Shown: positions 25,240 through 56,370 of the stretch, one piece after another | Layout of the letters: every line of letters begins with the position of its first letter | How positions within the stretch are numbered: the first letter of the stretch is position 1 | NCBI GenBank assembly: GCA_039801085.1 | Contig: JBDRTY010000001.1 | Coordinates: forward strand, 374,852-438,851 | Length of the DNA stretch: 64,000 bases | Direction of reading: 5' to 3' | Source: a candidate division WOR-3 bacterium | GTDB taxonomy: Bacteria; Hydrothermota; Tepidihabitantia; Tepidihabitantales; Tepidihabitantaceae | Made by a program: the position numbers and the translations under genes | The notes under the pieces: generated by a model | Database searches by the model: none | What the model saw: only the letters and a program-made list of their open reading frames with translations | Told to the model about the DNA's origin: nothing

Positions 25240-26559
25240 ATGAGTAAACTTGTTCAGCAGATTGACCGCCGGCAGGCACGCGTGGCAGTGATCGGGATCG
25301 GTTATGTCGGTCTGCCGCTGGCGGTGGAGATCGCCCGCGCGGGTTACTACACGGTCGGAATCGATGTGGACGAAAACAAGGTTCAGGCGGTCAGGCAGGG
25401 GAAAAGCTATATCGGTGATGTACCGGCAGAGGATGTTGCCGAGCTGGTCAAAGCCGGCAGGCTGAAGGCGACCACCGATTACCGGCAGTGCCAAGAGTGT
25501 GAAATCATCAACATCTGTGTTCCGACGCCGTTTACTGCCACCAAGGACCCGGATGTTTCTTATATTGTTGAGGCGGGGAAGCGAGTAGCAGAAAACCTGA
25601 AGCCGGGGCGGCTGATCATCCTCCGCAGCACCACCTATCCGGAGACCACCGAAAAGGTGCTTTTGCCGATTCTGGAGCAGACCGGGCTGAAGGTCGGGCG
25701 CGACTTCTTCCTTTCCTTCGCACCGGAGCGGATTGACCCGGGCAACAAGAAATGGACAATCCGGACTACGCCGGTGGTGATTGGCGGGGTGACGAAAAAA
25801 TGCACCGAGCTTTCCTGCCGTTTTTATGAAAAGATTGTGGACCGGGTGGTGCCGGTCTCCTCGCCCCGGGTGGCGGAGATGTCCAAACTGCTGGAGAACA
25901 TCTTCCGGAGCGTGAATATTGCGCTGGTTAATGAGCTGGCACGGATGTGCGACCGGATGGGCAACATCGATGTCTGGGAGGTAATCAATGCGGCAGCGAC
26001 CAAGCCGTTCGGCTATATGCCCTTTTATCCCGGTCCGGGAATTGGCGGGCACTGTATCCTGATTGACCCCTACTATCTTGCCTGGAAGGCACGGGAGTAT
26101 GACTTCCATTCCAACTTCATTGAACTGGCAGCGGAGACCAATGAGGCGATGCCGTTCTTTGTTGTTGACCGGATTCTGGAGGTGCTGGGTATCAATGGTG
26201 TGCCGGCAAGAAAAGCCCGGATTCTGATCATCGGCGCCGCCTTCAAGCGGGATGTGGATGACACCCGCCATTCCCCGGCAATCAAGGTGATGGAACTGCT
26301 TCTGGACAAGGTGCGCCGGATTGAATATGTTGATCCGTATGTACCGGAAATTGAAATTGCCGGCAGAAAATTCCGGGCGCAGAAACTGACACCGGCGCTA
26401 CTGCGGGCAGCCGACTGCGTGGTCATTCTGACTGACCACACCTGTCTCGATTATGATCTGATTCTGCGGGAGAGCCGGCTTATTGTTGACACCAGGAATG
26501 CGATCAAGCACCGGCGGGTTAAGAAGCTTTATACGCTGGGCTACCGGGTTAAGGGTTAG
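25240..26559 (+). CDS. Nucleotide-sugar dehydrogenase (UDP-N-acetylhexosamine 6-dehydrogenase type)
   Basis: A protein of 439 residues; ATG follows GGAAAGGAG. It has an N-terminal NAD-binding Rossmann motif (VAVIGIGYVGLPLAVEIA), the central helix region (VSSPRVAEMSKLLENIFRSV) and the catalytic Cys in GPGIGGHCILIDPYY. The C-terminal domain (IIGAAFKRDVDDTRHSPA) binds the UDP-sugar. The spacing fits the WecC/WbpA group, which oxidises UDP-N-acetyl-mannosamine or -glucosamine to uronic acids for surface polysaccharide. No other polysaccharide gene is adjacent. It overlaps the convergent hycI gene by 4 bp. Confidence 0.92.
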   Translation: MSKLVQQIDRRQARVAVIGIGYVGLPLAVEIARAGYYTVGIDVDENKVQAVRQGKSYIGDVPAEDVAELVKAGRLKATTDYRQCQECEIINICVPTPFTATKDPDVSYIVEAGKRVAENLKPGRLIILRSTTYPETTEKVLLPILEQTGLKVGRDFFLSFAPERIDPGNKKWTIRTTPVVIGGVTKKCTELSCRFYEKIVDRVVPVSSPRVAEMSKLLENIFRSVNIALVNELARMCDRMGNIDVWEVINAAATKPFGYMPFYPGPGIGGHCILIDPYYLAWKAREYDFHSNFIELAAETNEAMPFFVVDRILEVLGINGVPARKARILIIGAAFKRDVDDTRHSPAIKVMELLLDKVRRIEYVDPYVPEIEIAGRKFRAQKLTPALLRAADCVVILTDHTCLDYDLILRESRLIVDTRNAIKHRRVKKLYTLGYRVKG

Positions 26560-27005
26560 ACACCACCTGCCCAAGCGGTAATAAAACTGACGATTTCCGG
26601 CAATGCCTGCCGGACTGCCGGCGAAAGTTCAGTGCCTGCTCTTGTGTCTGAGGGCATAATCCCCATAAGGTAAACTTCCGCGCCGGTTTCTGCTGCCAGC
26701 AGTTCGGCGATCATGTTGAGCGGCGGAGTATGGGTGGAGAAACCGGCTACTTCCAGCCGGTCAAATTCGGACCGGTCAAACAGCCGGAATTCCCCCGGTT
26801 CGCCACTGAACCGGCAGGCGTCAACAAATAGAATCCGGTCAGGCCGGGCTTTAATTACCGGTCCGAGATGGTTCTCCGGGACTGTCCGGGCATCAATCAG
26901 CACAATTCCGGGCAGATTCAGTGCCCCCAGCATTTCGGCAATATGGACGCCGACGCCGTCATCACCCCGTTCCGGATTGCCGATGCCAATGATTACGGTG
27001 CTCAT
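26556..27005 (-). CDS. hycI: Hydrogenase maturation endopeptidase (HycI type)
   Basis: A protein of 149 residues from ATG 27005, which overlaps the upstream stop codon (ATGA) and lines up with the family start (STVIIGIGNPERGDDGVG). Nickel-ligand positions of the family are visible: the acidic residue in GDDGVG, Asp in LFVDACRF and His in GFSTHTPPLN. This protease cuts the C terminus of a [NiFe]-hydrogenase large subunit after nickel insertion. STHTPPL resembles HycI/group-4 hydrogenase proteases. No hydrogenase structural gene lies in the window, but hypC is found 7.5 kb away. Confidence 0.9.
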   Translation of the reverse strand: MSTVIIGIGNPERGDDGVGVHIAEMLGALNLPGIVLIDARTVPENHLGPVIKARPDRILFVDACRFSGEPGEFRLFDRSEFDRLEVAGFSTHTPPLNMIAELLAAETGAEVYLMGIMPSDTRAGTELSPAVRQALPEIVSFITAWAGGV

Positions 27006-28003
27006 CCCCGCCCCTGCCGGTATTTCAGGGCTTTTGCCTCCCGGACATAACTGCCGAGCCAGGGGACCCGGGAGGCGTAGCACTCCAGAGCAATGATCCG
27101 GTTGGCATAATGGACCGCACTGTCGGCAACCCCCAGACCCTGCCAGGCGTATGCCAGCTTGAGCCAGTTTTCGGTCAGGCCGTAGCGGTTATCAGGAAAT
27201 GTCCGGCGGATGTCGGCATCAAGTTCTCTGCCGAGCGCAATCGCCTGCCGGTAATCACCCTTTGCCAGATAGACATCGCGCAGAAGCCTTCGTGCTGAGC
27301 GGTTGCCGGGATAGCGCCGGAGCAGATGTTGGCAGTAACGGATTGCGGCAGGATAGTCTCGATCCTCCTTATGCATGAACCCGAGCATGAACTCCGCCAT
27401 CGGCTGGAGCAGTTCTGCCTGAAGTCGTGCCTCCTCCATCTGCCGGTATGCCCGCTCCCGTGAGCCGAGCAGGCCGAGTCCGAGGCAGTAGCGGTCGGCG
27501 GTTGCCTTGAAATACTCAATGACGGCGAGACCGAACCGGGCATCGTGGAGTTGCGGGTCAAGCGTCAGCGCCCGTTTCAGATGGGATGGGACCCTGAGCA
27601 TGGTCCTGAAGGCGTCAAACTTCCGGTTCTGCCAGGAGAGGAGGTTTGCCCGGTTGAGCAGGGCAAGACCGAGATAGAGATGGGCTGATGCATCCTGCTC
27701 ATGCTCCTGGAGCCGGCGCCGGCAGGCGTCAAGCACCTGCTCGGTGCAGTGCTCAAACGAGTCCACGAGGGCGGTGTTGCCGGAGTCATAAATCAGCAGC
27801 TGCAGCAGGCACGCCTGCCAGAACAGTCCGGGAAGCCGGGTGTCGGGATGCTGTTTCAGCAGTTCCACCTTCTCCCGGGCAGTTTGATAAAGCTGACGAT
27901 AGGACAGGTCCCGGGCAAAGATGATTGATTCTCTGATCCCTGCCGGCTGCTGAGCGCTGAGAGCTGCCAGCAGAACGAGCTTAACGCAGAGCAACCGCCT
28001 CAA
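27002..28003 (-). CDS. Exported TPR-like protein
   Basis: About 333 residues from a TTG at 28003, the start that puts a signal peptide (RRLLCVKLVLLAALSAQ) at the N terminus; an upstream ATG at 28084 would place 27 polar residues in front of it, inside ridA. The protein is rich in helical repeats with TPR spacing (SAHLYLGLALLNRANLL, RYCQHLLRRYPGNRSARRL, AWQGLGVADSAVHYANRII). Function unknown; probably a periplasmic scaffold. It overlaps ridA by 23 bp upstream and hycI by 4 bp downstream, so the glnA-ridA-TPR-hycI genes are one unit. Confidence 0.7.
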   Translation of the reverse strand: MRRLLCVKLVLLAALSAQQPAGIRESIIFARDLSYRQLYQTAREKVELLKQHPDTRLPGLFWQACLLQLLIYDSGNTALVDSFEHCTEQVLDACRRRLQEHEQDASAHLYLGLALLNRANLLSWQNRKFDAFRTMLRVPSHLKRALTLDPQLHDARFGLAVIEYFKATADRYCLGLGLLGSRERAYRQMEEARLQAELLQPMAEFMLGFMHKEDRDYPAAIRYCQHLLRRYPGNRSARRLLRDVYLAKGDYRQAIALGRELDADIRRTFPDNRYGLTENWLKLAYAWQGLGVADSAVHYANRIIALECYASRVPWLGSYVREAKALKYRQGRG

Positions 28004-31423: not shown

Positions 31424-31451
31424 TTGATTATCAATGCCCGGTGGCTATTAT
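31424..31451 (+). promoter_or_regulatory. Promoter for arcC operon (leaderless)
   Basis: TTGATT (31424-31429), 16-bp spacer, TATTAT (31446-31451), 7 nt to ATG 31459. It overlaps an in-frame GTG at 31441, which therefore cannot be the start if this promoter is used. Confidence 0.6.
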
Positions 31452-31458
31452 TAACGGT

Positions 31459-32391
31459 ATGACTGCAGTCCTGGCGATCGGCGGCAACTCACTCATCCGC
31501 TCCAAGGAGCAGATCTCGTTTGCTGACCAGCTGGCGACCCTGAAGGCAAGCTGTGAACCGCTGGTGGCGCTCGTCCGACAGGGCGAGCGGGTAGTGATTA
31601 CTCATGGCAACGGTCCGCAGGTCGGGTTCATTCTCCTCCGCTCCTATCTGGCGCGCAACCGTCTGCCTGAAATTCCGCTCGATGCCGCCAACGCCCAGAC
31701 TCAGGCGGAGATCGGCTACATGATTCAGCAGGTGCTCGGCAACCTTTTCCTTCAGGCGGGAATCAGTCAGCCGGTGGTGACGGTGGTAACCCGGGTGCTG
31801 GTGGACAGAGATGACCCGGCATTTGCCAAGCCTTCAAAGCCGGTCGGTCCGTTCTATACCCGTGCCGAGGCGGTGAAACTGGAGCAGGAGCTGGGCTGGA
31901 CCGTCAGGGAGGATTCAGGCCGGGGCTACCGTCGGATGGTGGCGTCGCCCCTGCCGCAGGCGGTAATTGAGCTTGAGGAGATCCGGAGTCTGGTCAATGC
32001 CGGTGCGGTGGTCATCGCCTGCGGTGGTGGCGGAATTCCGGTGATCCGGGAGAATGGTGAGCTGAAGGGGGTGGCAGCGGTGATTGACAAGGACCTGGCT
32101 TCTGCCCTGCTCGCCAACCTGCTGGGTGCGGAGCGGATGATCATCACCACCGCGGTCGACCGGGTGTATCTCAATTACGGCAAACCGGATGCCCAGCCGC
32201 TTGCGCAGGTGCGCGCCGGCGAGCTGGCGGAGTATCAGAAACAGGGACATTTTCCCGAGGGAAGCATGGGTCCGAAGATTGAGGCGGCGCTCAGGTTTCT
32301 TGCCGGTGGCGGTAAGGAGGTGCTGATCACCGATCCGGACCATCTGCTGGCAGCGCTTGAGGGCAGGGCAGGCACAAGGATTACAGAATGA
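31459..32391 (+). CDS. arcC: Carbamate kinase
   Basis: A protein of 310 residues from ATG 31459; a GTG at 31441 is in frame but lies inside the promoter. Family motifs: VLAIGGNSLIR, ITHGNGPQVG, CGGGGIPVI, VIDKDLASALLA and GSMGPKIEAA. The enzyme interconverts ATP plus carbamate with ADP plus carbamoyl phosphate. No arginine deiminase or ornithine carbamoyltransferase gene is nearby. It starts an overlapping run of genes that ends in hypC, so a link to carbamoyl-phosphate use in hydrogenase assembly is possible. Confidence 0.95.
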   Translation: MTAVLAIGGNSLIRSKEQISFADQLATLKASCEPLVALVRQGERVVITHGNGPQVGFILLRSYLARNRLPEIPLDAANAQTQAEIGYMIQQVLGNLFLQAGISQPVVTVVTRVLVDRDDPAFAKPSKPVGPFYTRAEAVKLEQELGWTVREDSGRGYRRMVASPLPQAVIELEEIRSLVNAGAVVIACGGGGIPVIRENGELKGVAAVIDKDLASALLANLLGAERMIITTAVDRVYLNYGKPDAQPLAQVRAGELAEYQKQGHFPEGSMGPKIEAALRFLAGGGKEVLITDPDHLLAALEGRAGTRITE

Positions 32392-33644
32392 GCCTCCGGA
32401 GCCGGCTGGTTGCGGTGGCACTGCTGGTGGTTGCGGTGCTGGGTGCCCAGGAGCAGATTCTGATTCCGATGGACTTGACCCAGACCGACCATCTGAAGGC
32501 ATACGGCATCGCCTACCGGCTCCTGCAGCGGGGCACCAGGGTGGAGTGGCTGCTCAACTACCGGGGCGGGTCATTTCTCTTTCCGGTGGAAAATCAGGCG
32601 CTGCGGGAGTGCCGGCTTAACGGGGTCTATTATGAGCCGGTATCACCTTCAAAGCTTGTCGAGATCCGGCAGACGATTGAGGCAAACAACATGGCATCGG
32701 TGATCCTGGAACGGCCGACCCGGGTTGCGGTCTATGCTCCACCGACCGCGGACCCCTGGGATGATGCGGTCCGGCTGGCACTGGACTATGCGGGCATACC
32801 CTATGATGTGGTCTGGGATCCGGATGTGCTGGCAGGCAGACTTTCCCAGTATGACTGGCTTCATCTCCATCATGAGGACTTTACCGGTCAGTTCGGCAAG
32901 TTCTACTCCTCCTACCGGCAGGAGAAATGGTATCAGGAGGAGGTGGCGCTCAACCTCCAGACCGCAAAAAGGTTCGGGTTCAGCAAGGTGAGCCGGCTCA
33001 AGCTGGCGGTGCTGGAGAAGATCCGGGAGTATGTGGCAGCGGGCGGGATGCTGTTTGCGATGTGCTCGGCAACCGACACCCCGGACATCGCCTGGGCGGC
33101 AAGGAATACCGACATCTGTGCCGAGGTTTTTGACGGTGATCCGGTTGACCCGCAGTATCAGAAAAAGCTTGACTATGATGGTTGTCTTGCCTTTGAGAAC
33201 TTCCAGGTGATCACCGACCCGTATCTTTATGAGCATTCCAATATTGACACCTATCTGGAGACCTCAGGCCGGGGTCCGGATGTGTATTTCTCCCTCTTTG
33301 ACTTCTCCGCCAAGTATGACCCGGTGCCGACGATGCTCGTCCAGAACCATGTCGGGCTGGTCCGGGAGTTTCTGGGGCAGAACTGCGGTTTCCGGCGCGA
33401 GCTTCTGAAAAAGGATGTCCTGATTCTGGGTGAGGTGGAGAACACCGAGGAGGTGAAATACATCCATGGCCAGTTCGGCAAGGGGACCTTCACCTTTCTG
33501 GGCGGACATGATCCTGAGGACTATGCCCACCGGATCGGTGATCCGCCGACCGACCTCAACCTGCACAAGAATTCGCCCGGCTACCGGCTGATTCTCAACA
33601 ATGTCCTTTTCCCGGCAGCGGAGAAAAAACCGCTCAAGACCTGA
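32388..33644 (+). CDS. Conserved secreted protein, function unknown
   Basis: A protein of 418 residues; ATG overlaps the arcC stop (ATGA). A signal peptide (RLVAVALLVVAVLGAQ) comes first. The rest is conserved-looking (QILIPMDLTQTDHLKAYGIA, WLLNYRGGSF, GKGTFTFLGGHDPEDYAHR) and I recall homologues in FCB genomes that carry the label asparagine synthetase B. That label is not supported: there is no N-terminal glutaminase Cys and no PP-loop. Alternating hydrophobic strands with YDWLHLHHEDF and EYVAAGGMLFAMCSA resemble a glutamine-amidotransferase-like or DUF4159-like flavodoxin fold. It is probably envelope-located; its place between two cytosolic enzymes is unexplained. Confidence 0.75.
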   Translation: MSLRSRLVAVALLVVAVLGAQEQILIPMDLTQTDHLKAYGIAYRLLQRGTRVEWLLNYRGGSFLFPVENQALRECRLNGVYYEPVSPSKLVEIRQTIEANNMASVILERPTRVAVYAPPTADPWDDAVRLALDYAGIPYDVVWDPDVLAGRLSQYDWLHLHHEDFTGQFGKFYSSYRQEKWYQEEVALNLQTAKRFGFSKVSRLKLAVLEKIREYVAAGGMLFAMCSATDTPDIAWAARNTDICAEVFDGDPVDPQYQKKLDYDGCLAFENFQVITDPYLYEHSNIDTYLETSGRGPDVYFSLFDFSAKYDPVPTMLVQNHVGLVREFLGQNCGFRRELLKKDVLILGEVENTEEVKYIHGQFGKGTFTFLGGHDPEDYAHRIGDPPTDLNLHKNSPGYRLILNNVLFPAAEKKPLKT

Positions 33645-33646
33645 GG

Positions 33647-34495
33647 ATGAACTCCACACCCAAGTGTCTGGAATGCGGACTGGAGCAGTGCCGCCGGATT
33701 TACCGGCTGGTCCGGGGTGATGATGACGGCTGGGAGCAGGTTCAGCAGGAGCTGGCGGTGCTCGTGCCGGCACTGGACCTGAGCGAGCCGCCCGGCACCA
33801 TGACCGCAAAACTGCTCGTCCGGACGACGGGACTGCTCGGCACAACCGATCCATTCCGGGAGATAAAGCAGGAGCAGAACCGGCAGGCGGCAGAGCTGGC
33901 GGTGACGCTGGATGGACAGCTGGGCAGGGATGAAGCCGGGCTGAGGCGGGCGATGATGCTTGCCGCAGCCGGCAATGTGCTTGATGTCGGGCCCGGACAG
34001 AAATTTGACCTCAACACACTGCTTGATTCGCTCCGGTTTGCCCATGACGACTCAGAAAAACTGATTGAGCGTTTAAGGCGGGTCCGCCGGGTAATGTATA
34101 TCCTGGACAACTGCGGTGAGGTGATGTTTGACCGGCTGGTGCTCAGCCGGCTGCCCCGGACTGAGCTGACAATTGTTGCCCGCTCATCTCCAATCCTCAA
34201 CGATGTCACGGTTGAAGAGGCGGTGGCGCTCGGGCTGGGTGAATTCGGCAGGGTCATCGGCACCGGCTCGCCCTACCTCGGGATTGACTTCCAGACTGTG
34301 AGTCCTGAGTTCCGCGCTGCCTATGAGCAGGCGGAGCTGGTGATTGCCAAGGGCCACGCCAATTTTGAGGCGCTGGTGGACGGACCGCGGGACGGGTTCT
34401 ATCTTCTGACCGCCAAGTGTGAACTGGTCGCAGACCGGCTCGGGGTCGGGCTGGGTCAGTCGGTCTGCTACTATTCAGCAGGGGCCGGGAGGTAG
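33647..34495 (+). CDS. DUF89/ARMT1-like damage-control phosphatase
   Basis: A protein of 282 residues. The subfamily CxxC at the N terminus (CLECGLEQCRR) and the metal-site motifs are seen: AAAGNVLDVG, YILDNCGEVMFDRL (Asp-Asn of the DUF89 core) and IAKGHANFEAL. DUF89 proteins are metal-dependent phosphatases that hydrolyse sugar phosphates and damaged phosphometabolites. This short subfamily is found in archaea and anaerobic bacteria. It starts 2 bp after the previous gene and ends directly before hypC, so all four genes from arcC are one operon. Confidence 0.88.
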   Translation: MNSTPKCLECGLEQCRRIYRLVRGDDDGWEQVQQELAVLVPALDLSEPPGTMTAKLLVRTTGLLGTTDPFREIKQEQNRQAAELAVTLDGQLGRDEAGLRRAMMLAAAGNVLDVGPGQKFDLNTLLDSLRFAHDDSEKLIERLRRVRRVMYILDNCGEVMFDRLVLSRLPRTELTIVARSSPILNDVTVEEAVALGLGEFGRVIGTGSPYLGIDFQTVSPEFRAAYEQAELVIAKGHANFEALVDGPRDGFYLLTAKCELVADRLGVGLGQSVCYYSAGAGR

Positions 34496-34496
34496 T

Positions 34497-34751
34497 ATGT
34501 GCCTGGCGATTCCGGTCCGGATTGTCCGGATTGAAGGTGAGACCGCAATTGGTGAGGTGGGCGGGGTGGAGCGTGAGGTTTCGCTTGTCATGACCCCGGA
34601 GGCAAAGGTGGGTGATTATGTCATCGTCCATGCCGGGTTTGCGATTCAGATTCTGGACCGGCAGGCGGCAGAGGAGACGCGTCAGCTCTTTGACCGGATG
34701 GCGCAGGCAGTTCAGGAGCGGCGCCAGCGGGCGAAGAGAAAGACCGGTTAG
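34497..34751 (+). CDS. hypC: Hydrogenase assembly chaperone HypC/HybG
   Basis: A protein of 84 residues from ATG 34497 (after GGGAGGTAGT), as the essential N-terminal Met-Cys (MCLAIPVRIVRI) must be exposed. HypC holds the Fe(CN)2CO unit with HypD during [NiFe]-hydrogenase maturation, bound through that Cys. Conserved segment: VGDYVIVHAGFAIQILD. A short Arg/Gln-rich tail follows. Last gene of the arcC operon; its end overlaps the convergent propeller gene by 4 bp. Confidence 0.95.
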   Translation: MCLAIPVRIVRIEGETAIGEVGGVEREVSLVMTPEAKVGDYVIVHAGFAIQILDRQAAEETRQLFDRMAQAVQERRQRAKRKTG

Positions 34752-54114: not shown

Positions 54115-54972
54115 ATGGTTAAGATATTGAAAAAAAGTATACTTGCACCTGGTGTTAAACGCCTGGAGCTGGATGCACCCGAAATTGCCCGTAAAGCCCT
54201 GCCCGGGCAGTTTGTAGTTTTGCGAATTCACGAGGAGGGGGAGCGGATTCCGCTGACAATCGCTGATGCCCGACCTGATGAAGGGGTACTGGTAATTGTA
54301 TTTCAGGAGGTGGGTAAATCAACCATGCTCTTGGGGACGCTGAATGATGGGGATGGCATAATGGATCTTATCGGTCCGCTGGGCAGGCCGACTGAAATTG
54401 AGCGGTTCGGGACGGTGGTGTGTGTTGGTGGCGGGGTTGGCACACCGGAAATTTATCCGGTTGCCCGGGCACTGCGTCAGGCAAACAACAGGGTGATTGG
54501 AATTATCGGTTTCCGGAATCGGGAGCTGATTCTGATGGAGGAGGAGATGCGGCGGGTGGTTGATGAACTTATTGTGTGTACTGATGACGGCTCGAATGGC
54601 AATAAGGGGCTGGTCACCGATATGCTTCAGCAGGTAATTGATCGGGGGGAGAAGATCGACCGGTGTTTCGCCGTCGGTCCGGTAATTATGATGAAGATGG
54701 TTTCCCTGTTGACGAAGAAGTATGGTATTCCGACGATCGTGAGTCTGAATCCGATCATGCTCGATGCGACCGGGATGTGCGGGGTGTGCCGGGTGGAGGT
54801 TGATGGACAGACCAAATTTGCCTGTGTGGATGGTCCGGAGTTTGACGGTCACAAGGTGAACTTTGACCTGCTGATGGCGCGTTTGAAAACTTATGTAAAC
54901 GAGGAGCGGCAGGCGGTGGAGCTGTTCCGGCAGGCACAAACCGGCTGCGGCTGCGGCCGAAGGGGGGCATAA
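54115..54972 (+). CDS. nfnA: NfnA/SudB-type ferredoxin-NADP+ oxidoreductase alpha subunit
   Basis: A protein of 285 residues. FAD-binding RIPLTIAD, NAD(P)-binding VCVGGGVGTPEIYPVARAL and the C-terminal [2Fe-2S] motif (GMCGVCRVEVDG, then FACVDGPEFDGHKV) are as in dihydroorotate-dehydrogenase electron-transfer subunits. With the next gene it forms NfnAB, which couples NADH and ferredoxin oxidation to NADPH formation by electron bifurcation, or a sulfide dehydrogenase in some archaea. The Cys-rich tail CGCGRRGA is unusual. Confidence 0.9.
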   Translation: MVKILKKSILAPGVKRLELDAPEIARKALPGQFVVLRIHEEGERIPLTIADARPDEGVLVIVFQEVGKSTMLLGTLNDGDGIMDLIGPLGRPTEIERFGTVVCVGGGVGTPEIYPVARALRQANNRVIGIIGFRNRELILMEEEMRRVVDELIVCTDDGSNGNKGLVTDMLQQVIDRGEKIDRCFAVGPVIMMKMVSLLTKKYGIPTIVSLNPIMLDATGMCGVCRVEVDGQTKFACVDGPEFDGHKVNFDLLMARLKTYVNEERQAVELFRQAQTGCGCGRRGA

Positions 54973-56370
54973 ATGGCAAAAATCAGTCCCAAGCGCACAC
55001 CGATGAAGGAGCAGGCACCTGAGGTGCGCCGGCACAACTTTGATGAGGTTCCGTTCGGTTATACTCCGGAAGAGGCAAAGGTCGAGGCGCAGCGCTGTCT
55101 CCGGTGCAAAAAACCCGGCTGTGTTGAGGGGTGTCCGGTGCAGGTAGATATTCCCGGTTTTATCCGGCATATTGCCGAAGGCAACTTTCTTGAGGCAATG
55201 AAGGTGATGAAGCGGACCAATGTCCTGCCGGCGATCTGCGGTCGCGTCTGTCCGCAGGAGACGCAGTGTGAGGGCGCCTGTGTCCTGGGAAAAAAGATGG
55301 AGCCAGTGGCGATCGGTAATCTGGAACGGTTCATTGCGGACTGGGAGGCAACCCAGCCGGAGTGTGTGATGTGCGAAATTCAGCCCGCAACCGGCAAGAA
55401 GGTGGCGGTAATCGGTTCCGGGCCGGCCGGATTGACTCTTGCCGGAGATATGCGGAAACTGGGGCATGAAGTAACAATTTTTGAAGCACTGCACAAGCCA
55501 GGCGGGGTATTGATGTACGGGATCCCGGAATTCCGTCTGCCCAAGGCAATTGTTGAGCGGGAGGTGAACTTTGTCCGTTCTATGGGGGTGAGGCTGGAGC
55601 TCAATTATGTGGTGGGTAAACTGAAGACCGTGGATGAGCTGCTTGAGGAGTTTGATGCCGTATTTATCGGTACCGGCGCCGGACTGCCACTGTTCATGAA
55701 TATTCCGGGCGAGAACTATCTCGGAGTTTATTCGGCAAATGAGTATCTTACCAGGTCCAATCTGATGAAGGCATATCTGTTTCCCCAATACGATACTCCG
55801 ATTGTCAAAGGTAAGAATGTGGCAGTAGTTGGCGGCGGTAATGTGGCGATGGATGCCGCCCGGACTGCGCTGCGTCTGGGAGCACAGCGGTCCATCCTGA
55901 TTTACCGGCGGTCCAGGGATGAGATGCCGGCGCGGGCAGCAGAAATTCATCATGCCGAGGAAGAAGGGGTGGAGTTTCAGCTTTTGACCAATCCGGTGCG
56001 TTATATTGCCGATGAGAATGGCTGGGTCCGGGAGGTGGAATGTATCCGGATGGAACTGGGGGAGCCGGATGCATCTGGCAGACGCCGTCCAGTGCCCGTG
56101 CCGGGAAGTGAGTTCCGTATCCCGGTGGATACCGTGGTGATTGCAATCGGTAACAGCCCGAATCCGCTGATTCCTCAGACAACACCAGGTCTGGAGGTTT
56201 CGAAGCGGGGGACGATCGTGGTGGATCCAGATACCGGCAGGACCTCAAAGCGGGGCGTGTTTGCTGGAGGGGACATTGTGACCGGTGCGGCAACCGTAAT
56301 TCTGGCGATGGGTGCGGGCAGAATTGCCGCCCGCTCCATGGATGAGTATCTGCGGACCGGCCGATGGTGA
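54973..56370 (+). CDS. nfnB: NfnB/SudA, glutamate synthase small-subunit-like flavoprotein
   Basis: A protein of 465 residues, full length. N-terminal [4Fe-4S] cluster motifs (RCLRCKKPGCVEGCPVQVD and CGRVCPQETQCEGAC), FAD motif VAVIGSGPAGLTLAGDM and NADPH motif VAVVGGGNVAMDAARTALR are all intact. C-terminal FAD contact: RGVFAGGDIVTGAATVI. It starts directly after the nfnA stop codon. Glutamate synthase beta subunit is the alternative, but no large subunit gene is present. Confidence 0.92.
   Translation: MAKISPKRTPMKEQAPEVRRHNFDEVPFGYTPEEAKVEAQRCLRCKKPGCVEGCPVQVDIPGFIRHIAEGNFLEAMKVMKRTNVLPAICGRVCPQETQCEGACVLGKKMEPVAIGNLERFIADWEATQPECVMCEIQPATGKKVAVIGSGPAGLTLAGDMRKLGHEVTIFEALHKPGGVLMYGIPEFRLPKAIVEREVNFVRSMGVRLELNYVVGKLKTVDELLEEFDAVFIGTGAGLPLFMNIPGENYLGVYSANEYLTRSNLMKAYLFPQYDTPIVKGKNVAVVGGGNVAMDAARTALRLGAQRSILIYRRSRDEMPARAAEIHHAEEEGVEFQLLTNPVRYIADENGWVREVECIRMELGEPDASGRRRPVPVPGSEFRIPVDTVVIAIGNSPNPLIPQTTPGLEVSKRGTIVVDPDTGRTSKRGVFAGGDIVTGAATVILAMGAGRIAARSMDEYLRTGRW

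Follow-up and report, generated by a model that had tools for sequence, protein, structure and literature searches.

Linkage of a carbamate kinase gene to hydrogenase maturation genes in a candidate division WOR-3 lineage, and a candidate route from arginine to carbamoyl phosphate

Why should a gene for carbamate kinase stand in one operon with a gene for hydrogenase maturation? The question is raised by a stretch of 64,000 nucleotides from a candidate division WOR-3 bacterium (assembly GCA_039801085.1, contig JBDRTY010000001.1, positions 374,852 to 438,851; hereafter the window), in which arcC, encoding carbamate kinase, is followed by a gene for a conserved protein that we call P2, by a DUF89 gene, and by hypC. 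A first-pass annotation of the window proposed that ArcC supplies carbamoyl phosphate to HypF, which needs it for the cyanide ligands of hydrogenase. From a survey of 120 genomes of relatives, together with 14 control genomes, we arrive at a different reading, to which we assign a probability of roughly 0.55: ArcC would be an ATP-forming consumer of carbamoyl phosphate that shares its pool with HypF, and the carbamoyl phosphate would come from arginine via an ArcE-like protein and ornithine carbamoyltransferase (OTC). According to PMC13260591, the source of carbamoyl phosphate for these ligands has been established genetically only for Escherichia coli, where it is carbamoyl phosphate synthetase (CPS), and, since 2026, for Thermococcus kodakarensis, where it is arginine. 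The present lineage offers a conserved arcC-hyp linkage and 45 genomes that encode HypF and lack CPS.

The arcC operon and its conservation

The four genes are co-linear, with a 4-bp overlap between arcC and the P2 gene, a gap of 2 bp before DUF89, and a gap of 1 bp before hypC (Table 1); the tight spacing reported by the first-pass annotation is borne out, as is its placement of a hycI gene within the window. The arcC start is ATG 31459 (an alternative in-frame GTG lies at 31441), and the product is a carbamate kinase by its full-length match to TIGR00746, residues 8-315 aligning with positions 2-308 of 309; its best match among solved structures is the carbamate kinase 1e19 (E 5e-86). HypC, which qualifies as a member of the HypC/HupF family, has the expected Met-Cys start (MCLAIP). 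The DUF89 protein falls below both NCBIfam equivalog cut-offs for damage-control phosphatases (NF040824, 172.1 against 440 bits; NF041594, 111.1 against 500 bits). The genome, numbered G000 here, comprises 1.91 Mb in seven contigs and is 96.8% complete.

Table 1. Genes of the arcC operon and related genes in the window (plain positions) and elsewhere in the same genome (positions on contig C2 of G000)
Feature	Position	Strand	Evidence
arcC, carbamate kinase	31459..32391	+	TIGR00746 379.8 bits, cut-off 358.25
P2, 418-aa conserved protein	32388..33644	+	conserved; no match in Pfam or NCBIfam
DUF89/ARMT1-like protein (damage-control phosphatase family)	33647..34495	+	PF01937 178.7 bits, over cut-off
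hypC, hydrogenase maturation chaperone	34497..34751	+	PF01455 93.8 bits; TIGR00074 86.7 bits, cut-off 48
hycI-type hydrogenase maturation protease	26556..27083	-	PF01750 55.2 bits, cut-off 23; outside operon
hypF	G000:C2:46308-48557		704.8 bits
ArcE-like gene	G000:C2:106531-107862		A2 profile 623.9 bits
OTC gene	G000:C2:155049-155957		TIGR00658 402.7 bits, cut-off 280.85

In the family to which the window genome belongs (f1, 18 genomes, G000-G017), arcC is present in 16 genomes, and all 16 have the order arcC-P2-hypC, with DUF89 between P2 and hypC in eight. Of the stretches examined from 16 relatives, several of them short contigs, only those of G001, G002, G003, and G009 showed the DUF2703 gene that lies upstream in the window. 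Because the block is kept in all 16 arcC-bearing genomes while DUF2703 turned up in only four of these stretches from relatives, its retention in f1 is more than chance. The remaining two members of the family are G007, which has neither arcC nor P2, and G004, which carries both carA and carB and from which arcC and most of P2 are gone, a 42-residue piece of P2 being followed by DUF89 and hypC. This remnant (L162:8837-10663) is either a scar of the loss of arcC-P2 or a misassembly.

A sister family in the same order (f4, five genomes) has hypF directly after arcC-P2 in G020, G023, G025, and G027, the contig of G026 ending inside P2; G027 also has DUF89 and hypC within 3 kb on the opposite side of arcC. 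Since dnaA follows hypF in G000 as well as in G023 and G025, the arcC-P2 pair has met two different hyp loci. The association between arcC and hydrogenase maturation genes in this lineage is genuine and has been conserved: far from being absent in all relatives, an outcome that the first-pass annotation had named as fatal to its proposal, the arcC-hypC link is present in 16 of the 18 f1 genomes. Among the literature matches listed, PMC13260591 and the review PMC6022934 were the only ones to connect arcC with hyp genes.

What the linkage means is a separate matter. The genes for ArcC and P2 are neighbours in four families, 32 genomes in all, and in no more than 20 of these does the pair stand next to a hyp gene; it has none beside it in f3 (three genomes) and f8 (eight genomes), and in both cases mapped, G019 (f3) and G030 (f8), DUF89 follows it and hypC does not. 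At two further loci, described below, P2 lies beside an ArcE-like gene. Such a pattern would be expected if it were arcC and P2 that truly belonged together, their neighbours hypC, hypF, and DUF89 having been inherited from one ancestral cluster, the linkage then carrying no message about carbamoyl phosphate. We consider this explanation unlikely, given that two hyp genes at two places (hypC in f1 and the hypF-dnaA site in f4) are joined to the same pair, and that the f1 block persists in every arcC-bearing genome despite changing flanks.

Candidate sources of carbamoyl phosphate

As the first-pass annotation had predicted, CPS is missing from the window genome: neither carA (PF00988) nor carB (PF02787) has a match in G000, and 14/14 control genomes matched. 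Neither gene occurs in 74 of the 120 genomes, and 69 of these 74 have arcC (two rows, arcC in G066 at 22 bits and carB in G026 at 20 bits and below cut-off, were dropped before counting). HypF is encoded in G000 and was counted as present in 87 genomes, 81 of them over cut-off and six (G007, G029, G038, G041, G055, and G099) with hypF split over contigs or frames. In G000 the hypF frame is open over its whole length, yet no ATG, GTG, or TTG occurs upstream of about profile residue 144 (L046:8264-8741); its start codon is unusual, or its first bases have been misread.

Across the survey, arcC tracks neither hypC (79/105 genomes with arcC and 11/15 without; p=1, this and the following p values ignoring relatedness and being indicative only) nor hypF (78/105 and 9/15; p=0.35), and HypF is missing from 27 arcC-bearing genomes. 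The suggested co-occurrence of arcC with hyp genes in relatives thus holds as a physical link (f1 with hypC, f4 with hypF) and fails as a pattern of presence, on which ground a dedicated hydrogenase role of arcC was rejected as a general rule. CPS is commoner in genomes without arcC (10/15 vs 36/105; p=0.023), a bias consistent with partly overlapping functions of the two.

Arginine is a second candidate source. Arginine deiminase (ADI, PF02274) has no match in the whole G000 genome, and nine other genomes give only partial matches of about 20-39 bits, so the canonical ADI pathway was rejected. The earlier statement that no gene of that pathway is present can be extended genome-wide for ADI, but it does not apply to OTC, which G000 does encode and which is over cut-off in 107/120 genomes. 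The neighbours of the OTC gene, hslU and a thioredoxin reductase gene, led us to reject membership in an arginine-biosynthesis operon, and this context gives no direction to the reaction. Other genes are more informative. argC is over cut-off in 0/120 genomes vs 13/14 controls, although weaker matches in 89 genomes (best 80 bits, cut-off 233.6) leave some room for a divergent argC. Some match to argG occurs in 83 genomes, and of the 29 that exceed the cut-off, 20 score about 27-38 bits; matches were therefore required to lie above 200 bits. Counted in this way, argG is absent from G000 and present in 9/120 genomes, all of which have CPS; PMC13260591 describes the same tie between CPS and argG in Thermococcales. 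Because gene content points to no ornithine synthesis and no argininosuccinate synthetase, OTC probably runs backwards in G000, most likely cleaving citrulline.

Directly upstream of arcC in several families lies a gene for a protein of 441-450 aa, which weakly matches solved chains named 'cyclic 2,3-diphosphoglycerate synthetase' (cDPGS; 9sxb, E 1.8e-9; 8ork, E 0.0003). With a profile (A2) built from four of these upstream proteins, this ArcE-like (cDPGS-like) family was found in 107/120 genomes, G000 included. Eighteen genomes from eight families have the gene at most 100 bp upstream of arcC (G067, G069, G071, G074, G075, G081, G083, G085, G086, G088, G090, G092, G094, G096, G100, G102, G106, and G108), and it co-occurs with arcC (98/105 genomes with arcC vs 9/15 without; p=0.0014). 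On a haloarchaeal plasmid, a family member annotated 'cyclic 2,3-diphosphoglycerate synthase' is divergent from arcC. In G000 and in G027 of f4, the ArcE-like gene comes directly after one for L-glutamate gamma-semialdehyde dehydrogenase (TIGR01237, 727 and 721 bits), the last step from arginine or ornithine to glutamate, so this neighbourhood fits arginine-ornithine-glutamate catabolism. Judged from gene context, the ArcE-like protein is probably ArcE, the arginine synthetase. TK2200 of T. kodakarensis is presumably a member of the same family. The 444-aa product of the gene preceding arcC in L058 was rejected as ArcE, having only a weak TMEM260-like match.

A route of this kind is described by Michimori and others (PMC13260591): T. 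kodakarensis, which has no CPS, obtains carbamoyl phosphate from arginine via ArcE and OTC. As given there, deletion of arcB abolished growth under hydrogenase-dependent conditions, deletion of arcC hardly affected it, and carbamate kinase was observed to form carbamoyl phosphate only when ammonia and bicarbonate were very high. G000 resembles this ArcE-ArcB-ArcC system in lacking CPS, ADI, and argG and in having OTC, ArcC, a candidate ArcE, and a HypF that needs carbamoyl phosphate. It differs in being bacterial, in the position of arcC beside hypC (or hypF) and P2, and in that its ArcE is a candidate assigned by context. With the arginine deiminase operon arcABC, G000 shares OTC and carbamate kinase, but it has no ADI gene and its genes are scattered.

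We propose that the cell obtains carbamoyl phosphate from arginine and not from CPS: the ArcE-like protein would convert arginine to citrulline, OTC would split citrulline into ornithine and carbamoyl phosphate, and the latter would feed pyrimidines, HypF, and ArcC. ArcC would mainly be a consumer, making ATP from carbamoyl phosphate, and the reason for its gene standing among hyp genes would be that HypF is supplied from the same pool. The scheme starts from the gene content, from its linkage and conservation, and from the absence of carAB, ADI, argG, and, above cut-off, argC; from these we infer the identity of the cDPGS-like protein, the directions of the reactions, and the reason for the co-location. 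The first-pass annotation had held that a complete arginine deiminase pathway elsewhere in the genome would count against ArcC as supplier. By way of ADI there is none; in substance the genome would have such an arginine-degrading pathway, provided that the ArcE-like protein is indeed ArcE.

The opposite view is that ArcC is anabolic: CPS having been lost, it would use ATP to turn ammonia and bicarbonate into carbamoyl phosphate, which would serve HypF and probably pyrimidine synthesis as well. In its favour are the absence of carA and carB from G000, the presence of arcC in 44 of the 45 CPS-less genomes with HypF, the links to hypC and hypF, and the greater frequency of CPS in arcC-less genomes; in addition, the nearest solved relative, 1e19, is the Pyrococcus furiosus enzyme that, according to PMC6022934, was once called a carbamate kinase-like CPS. 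However, it does not follow from the loss of carAB that ArcC is the source, because the ArcE-like protein and OTC form a second candidate source in G000, and both are found in 39 of the 45 genomes. The indifference of arcC to the presence of hypC or hypF and the little effect of its deletion in T. kodakarensis also count against the anabolic view. The Pyrococcus case is like the present one in enzyme family, in the missing CPS, and in 1e19 being the best structural match, and unlike it in that G000 has a candidate alternative source; moreover, PMC13260591 now questions the anabolic role of the Pyrococcus enzyme itself. What remains of ArcC as supplier is the arcC-hyp link, an encoded HypF, and the missing carAB. 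We regard an anabolic ArcC as doubtful, although it deserves to be kept in view.

Natural gene losses separate the two candidate sources. G021 (96% complete) encodes aspartate carbamoyltransferase (TIGR00670, 346 bits), OTC, and the ArcE-like protein and has neither arcC nor CPS, so that its carbamoyl phosphate must come from elsewhere; G042 (92% complete) has OTC and the ArcE-like gene, again with no arcC and no CPS. These two genomes favour arginine. In G109 and G116 (96% and 94% complete), arcC and OTC are present while the ArcE-like gene and CPS are both missing, and G116 has an aspartate carbamoyltransferase (325 bits); carbamoyl phosphate there must derive from ArcC, as the anabolic view has it, or from citrulline of some other origin. 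Any single missing gene in these four genomes may be an assembly gap. Besides G109 and G116, several points weigh against the route from arginine with ArcC as consumer: the ArcE-like gene is also kept in 41/46 genomes that have CPS, the ArcE identity of the cDPGS-like family is drawn from gene context, PMC13260591 giving no family for TK2200, no aspartate carbamoyltransferase was located in G000 beyond two lower-scoring carbamoyltransferase-family matches, and a consumer role does not specifically predict the arcC-hyp linkage.

Two relatives have other carbamoyltransferase genes near arcC. In G033 (L060), arcC is divergent from a carbamoyltransferase gene and a dihydroorotase-like amidohydrolase gene, a possible pyrB-pyrC pair; in G070 (G070:C10:22827-26140), two divergent carbamoyltransferase-family genes lie directly upstream of arcC, likely as a catabolic carbamoyltransferase operon.

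P2, the partner of arcC

In four families arcC has P2 as its constant partner downstream, and P2 is often the better conserved of the two (77% vs 66% in G005, for example). A PDB sequence search with a P2 profile gave no match up to E 1. Relatives of P2 occur in 104/120 genomes and are widespread in Bacteroidota and related phyla (at least 593 confirmed stretches, of which the best 80 were kept), Candidatus Stahlbacteria and candidate division WOR-3 being named among the matches listed. Within the best 80 of these at least 593 loci, ArcC is encoded beside P2 in L068 and an ArcE-like gene stands beside P2 in L073 and L082; the other 77 have no query genes nearby, many of the stretches being short. 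The analysis thus brings out a family without any model whose members recur beside arcC or the ArcE-like gene. The first-pass description of P2 as secreted agrees with the 24 residues ahead of IPMD in the window protein, which resemble a signal peptide. The corresponding N-terminal stretch is just 13 and 10 residues long in the homologues examined from f8 and f3, so secretion is not certain for all members.

A structural model of P2 from a 64-row alignment reached a pLDDT of 92.9 (an earlier model from 20 close rows was poor, at 68.9). From about residue 109 to 414, its predicted fold is that of class-I glutamine amidotransferases (GATase1) and ThuA-like proteins (VIA-align Z up to 13.2), with ThuA-like and GATase1 chains at Z 11-12.7, among them ThuA-like 4pxy (Z 12.7, root-mean-square deviation 3.5 over 204 residues). 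P2 differs from these proteins in an extra N-terminal region of about 108 residues, in an identity of 10-14%, and in matching no family model. C226, H374, and E377, which might form a Cys-His-Glu catalytic triad, are invariant in the 64 rows, and in the model C226 comes right after the strand 221-225; our guess is that P2 may be a hydrolase. P2 may also resemble Bacteroidota proteins annotated 'asparagine synthetase B'.

It could be imagined that arcC, P2, and the hyp genes form a dedicated supply line for the cyanide ligands, in which ArcC would form carbamoyl phosphate and pass it to HypF, P2 would supply or guard ammonia, and the DUF89 protein would clear damaged phosphoesters. This would make the lineage a bacterial one in which carbamate kinase replaces CPS specifically for hydrogenase assembly; we think it highly improbable.

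HypC-HydE fusions and a neighbouring gene pair

In some relatives, the [FeFe]-hydrogenase maturase HydE carries a fused N-terminal HypC-like domain (PF01455, 54-69 bits), with starts reading MCYAIP or MCLTIP. The fusions lie at L176:1407-2585 (G019) and L177:1046-2308 (G021), their HydE parts scoring 245.7 bits, just under the TIGR03956 cut-off of 254.6, and 268.3 bits; open-frame length indicates the same fusion in G022, G024, and G042. The fusion gene adjoins HydG, and the host genomes lack HypF. Among the literature matches listed, none concerned this fusion, the two that came up looking unrelated. It would be unusual for [FeFe] maturation to involve a HypC module.

Finally, positions 54115-56370 of the window encode a sulfide/dihydroorotate dehydrogenase-like FAD/NAD-binding protein followed by an NADPH-dependent glutamate synthase (gltA), a pair that we take to be NfnAB-like.

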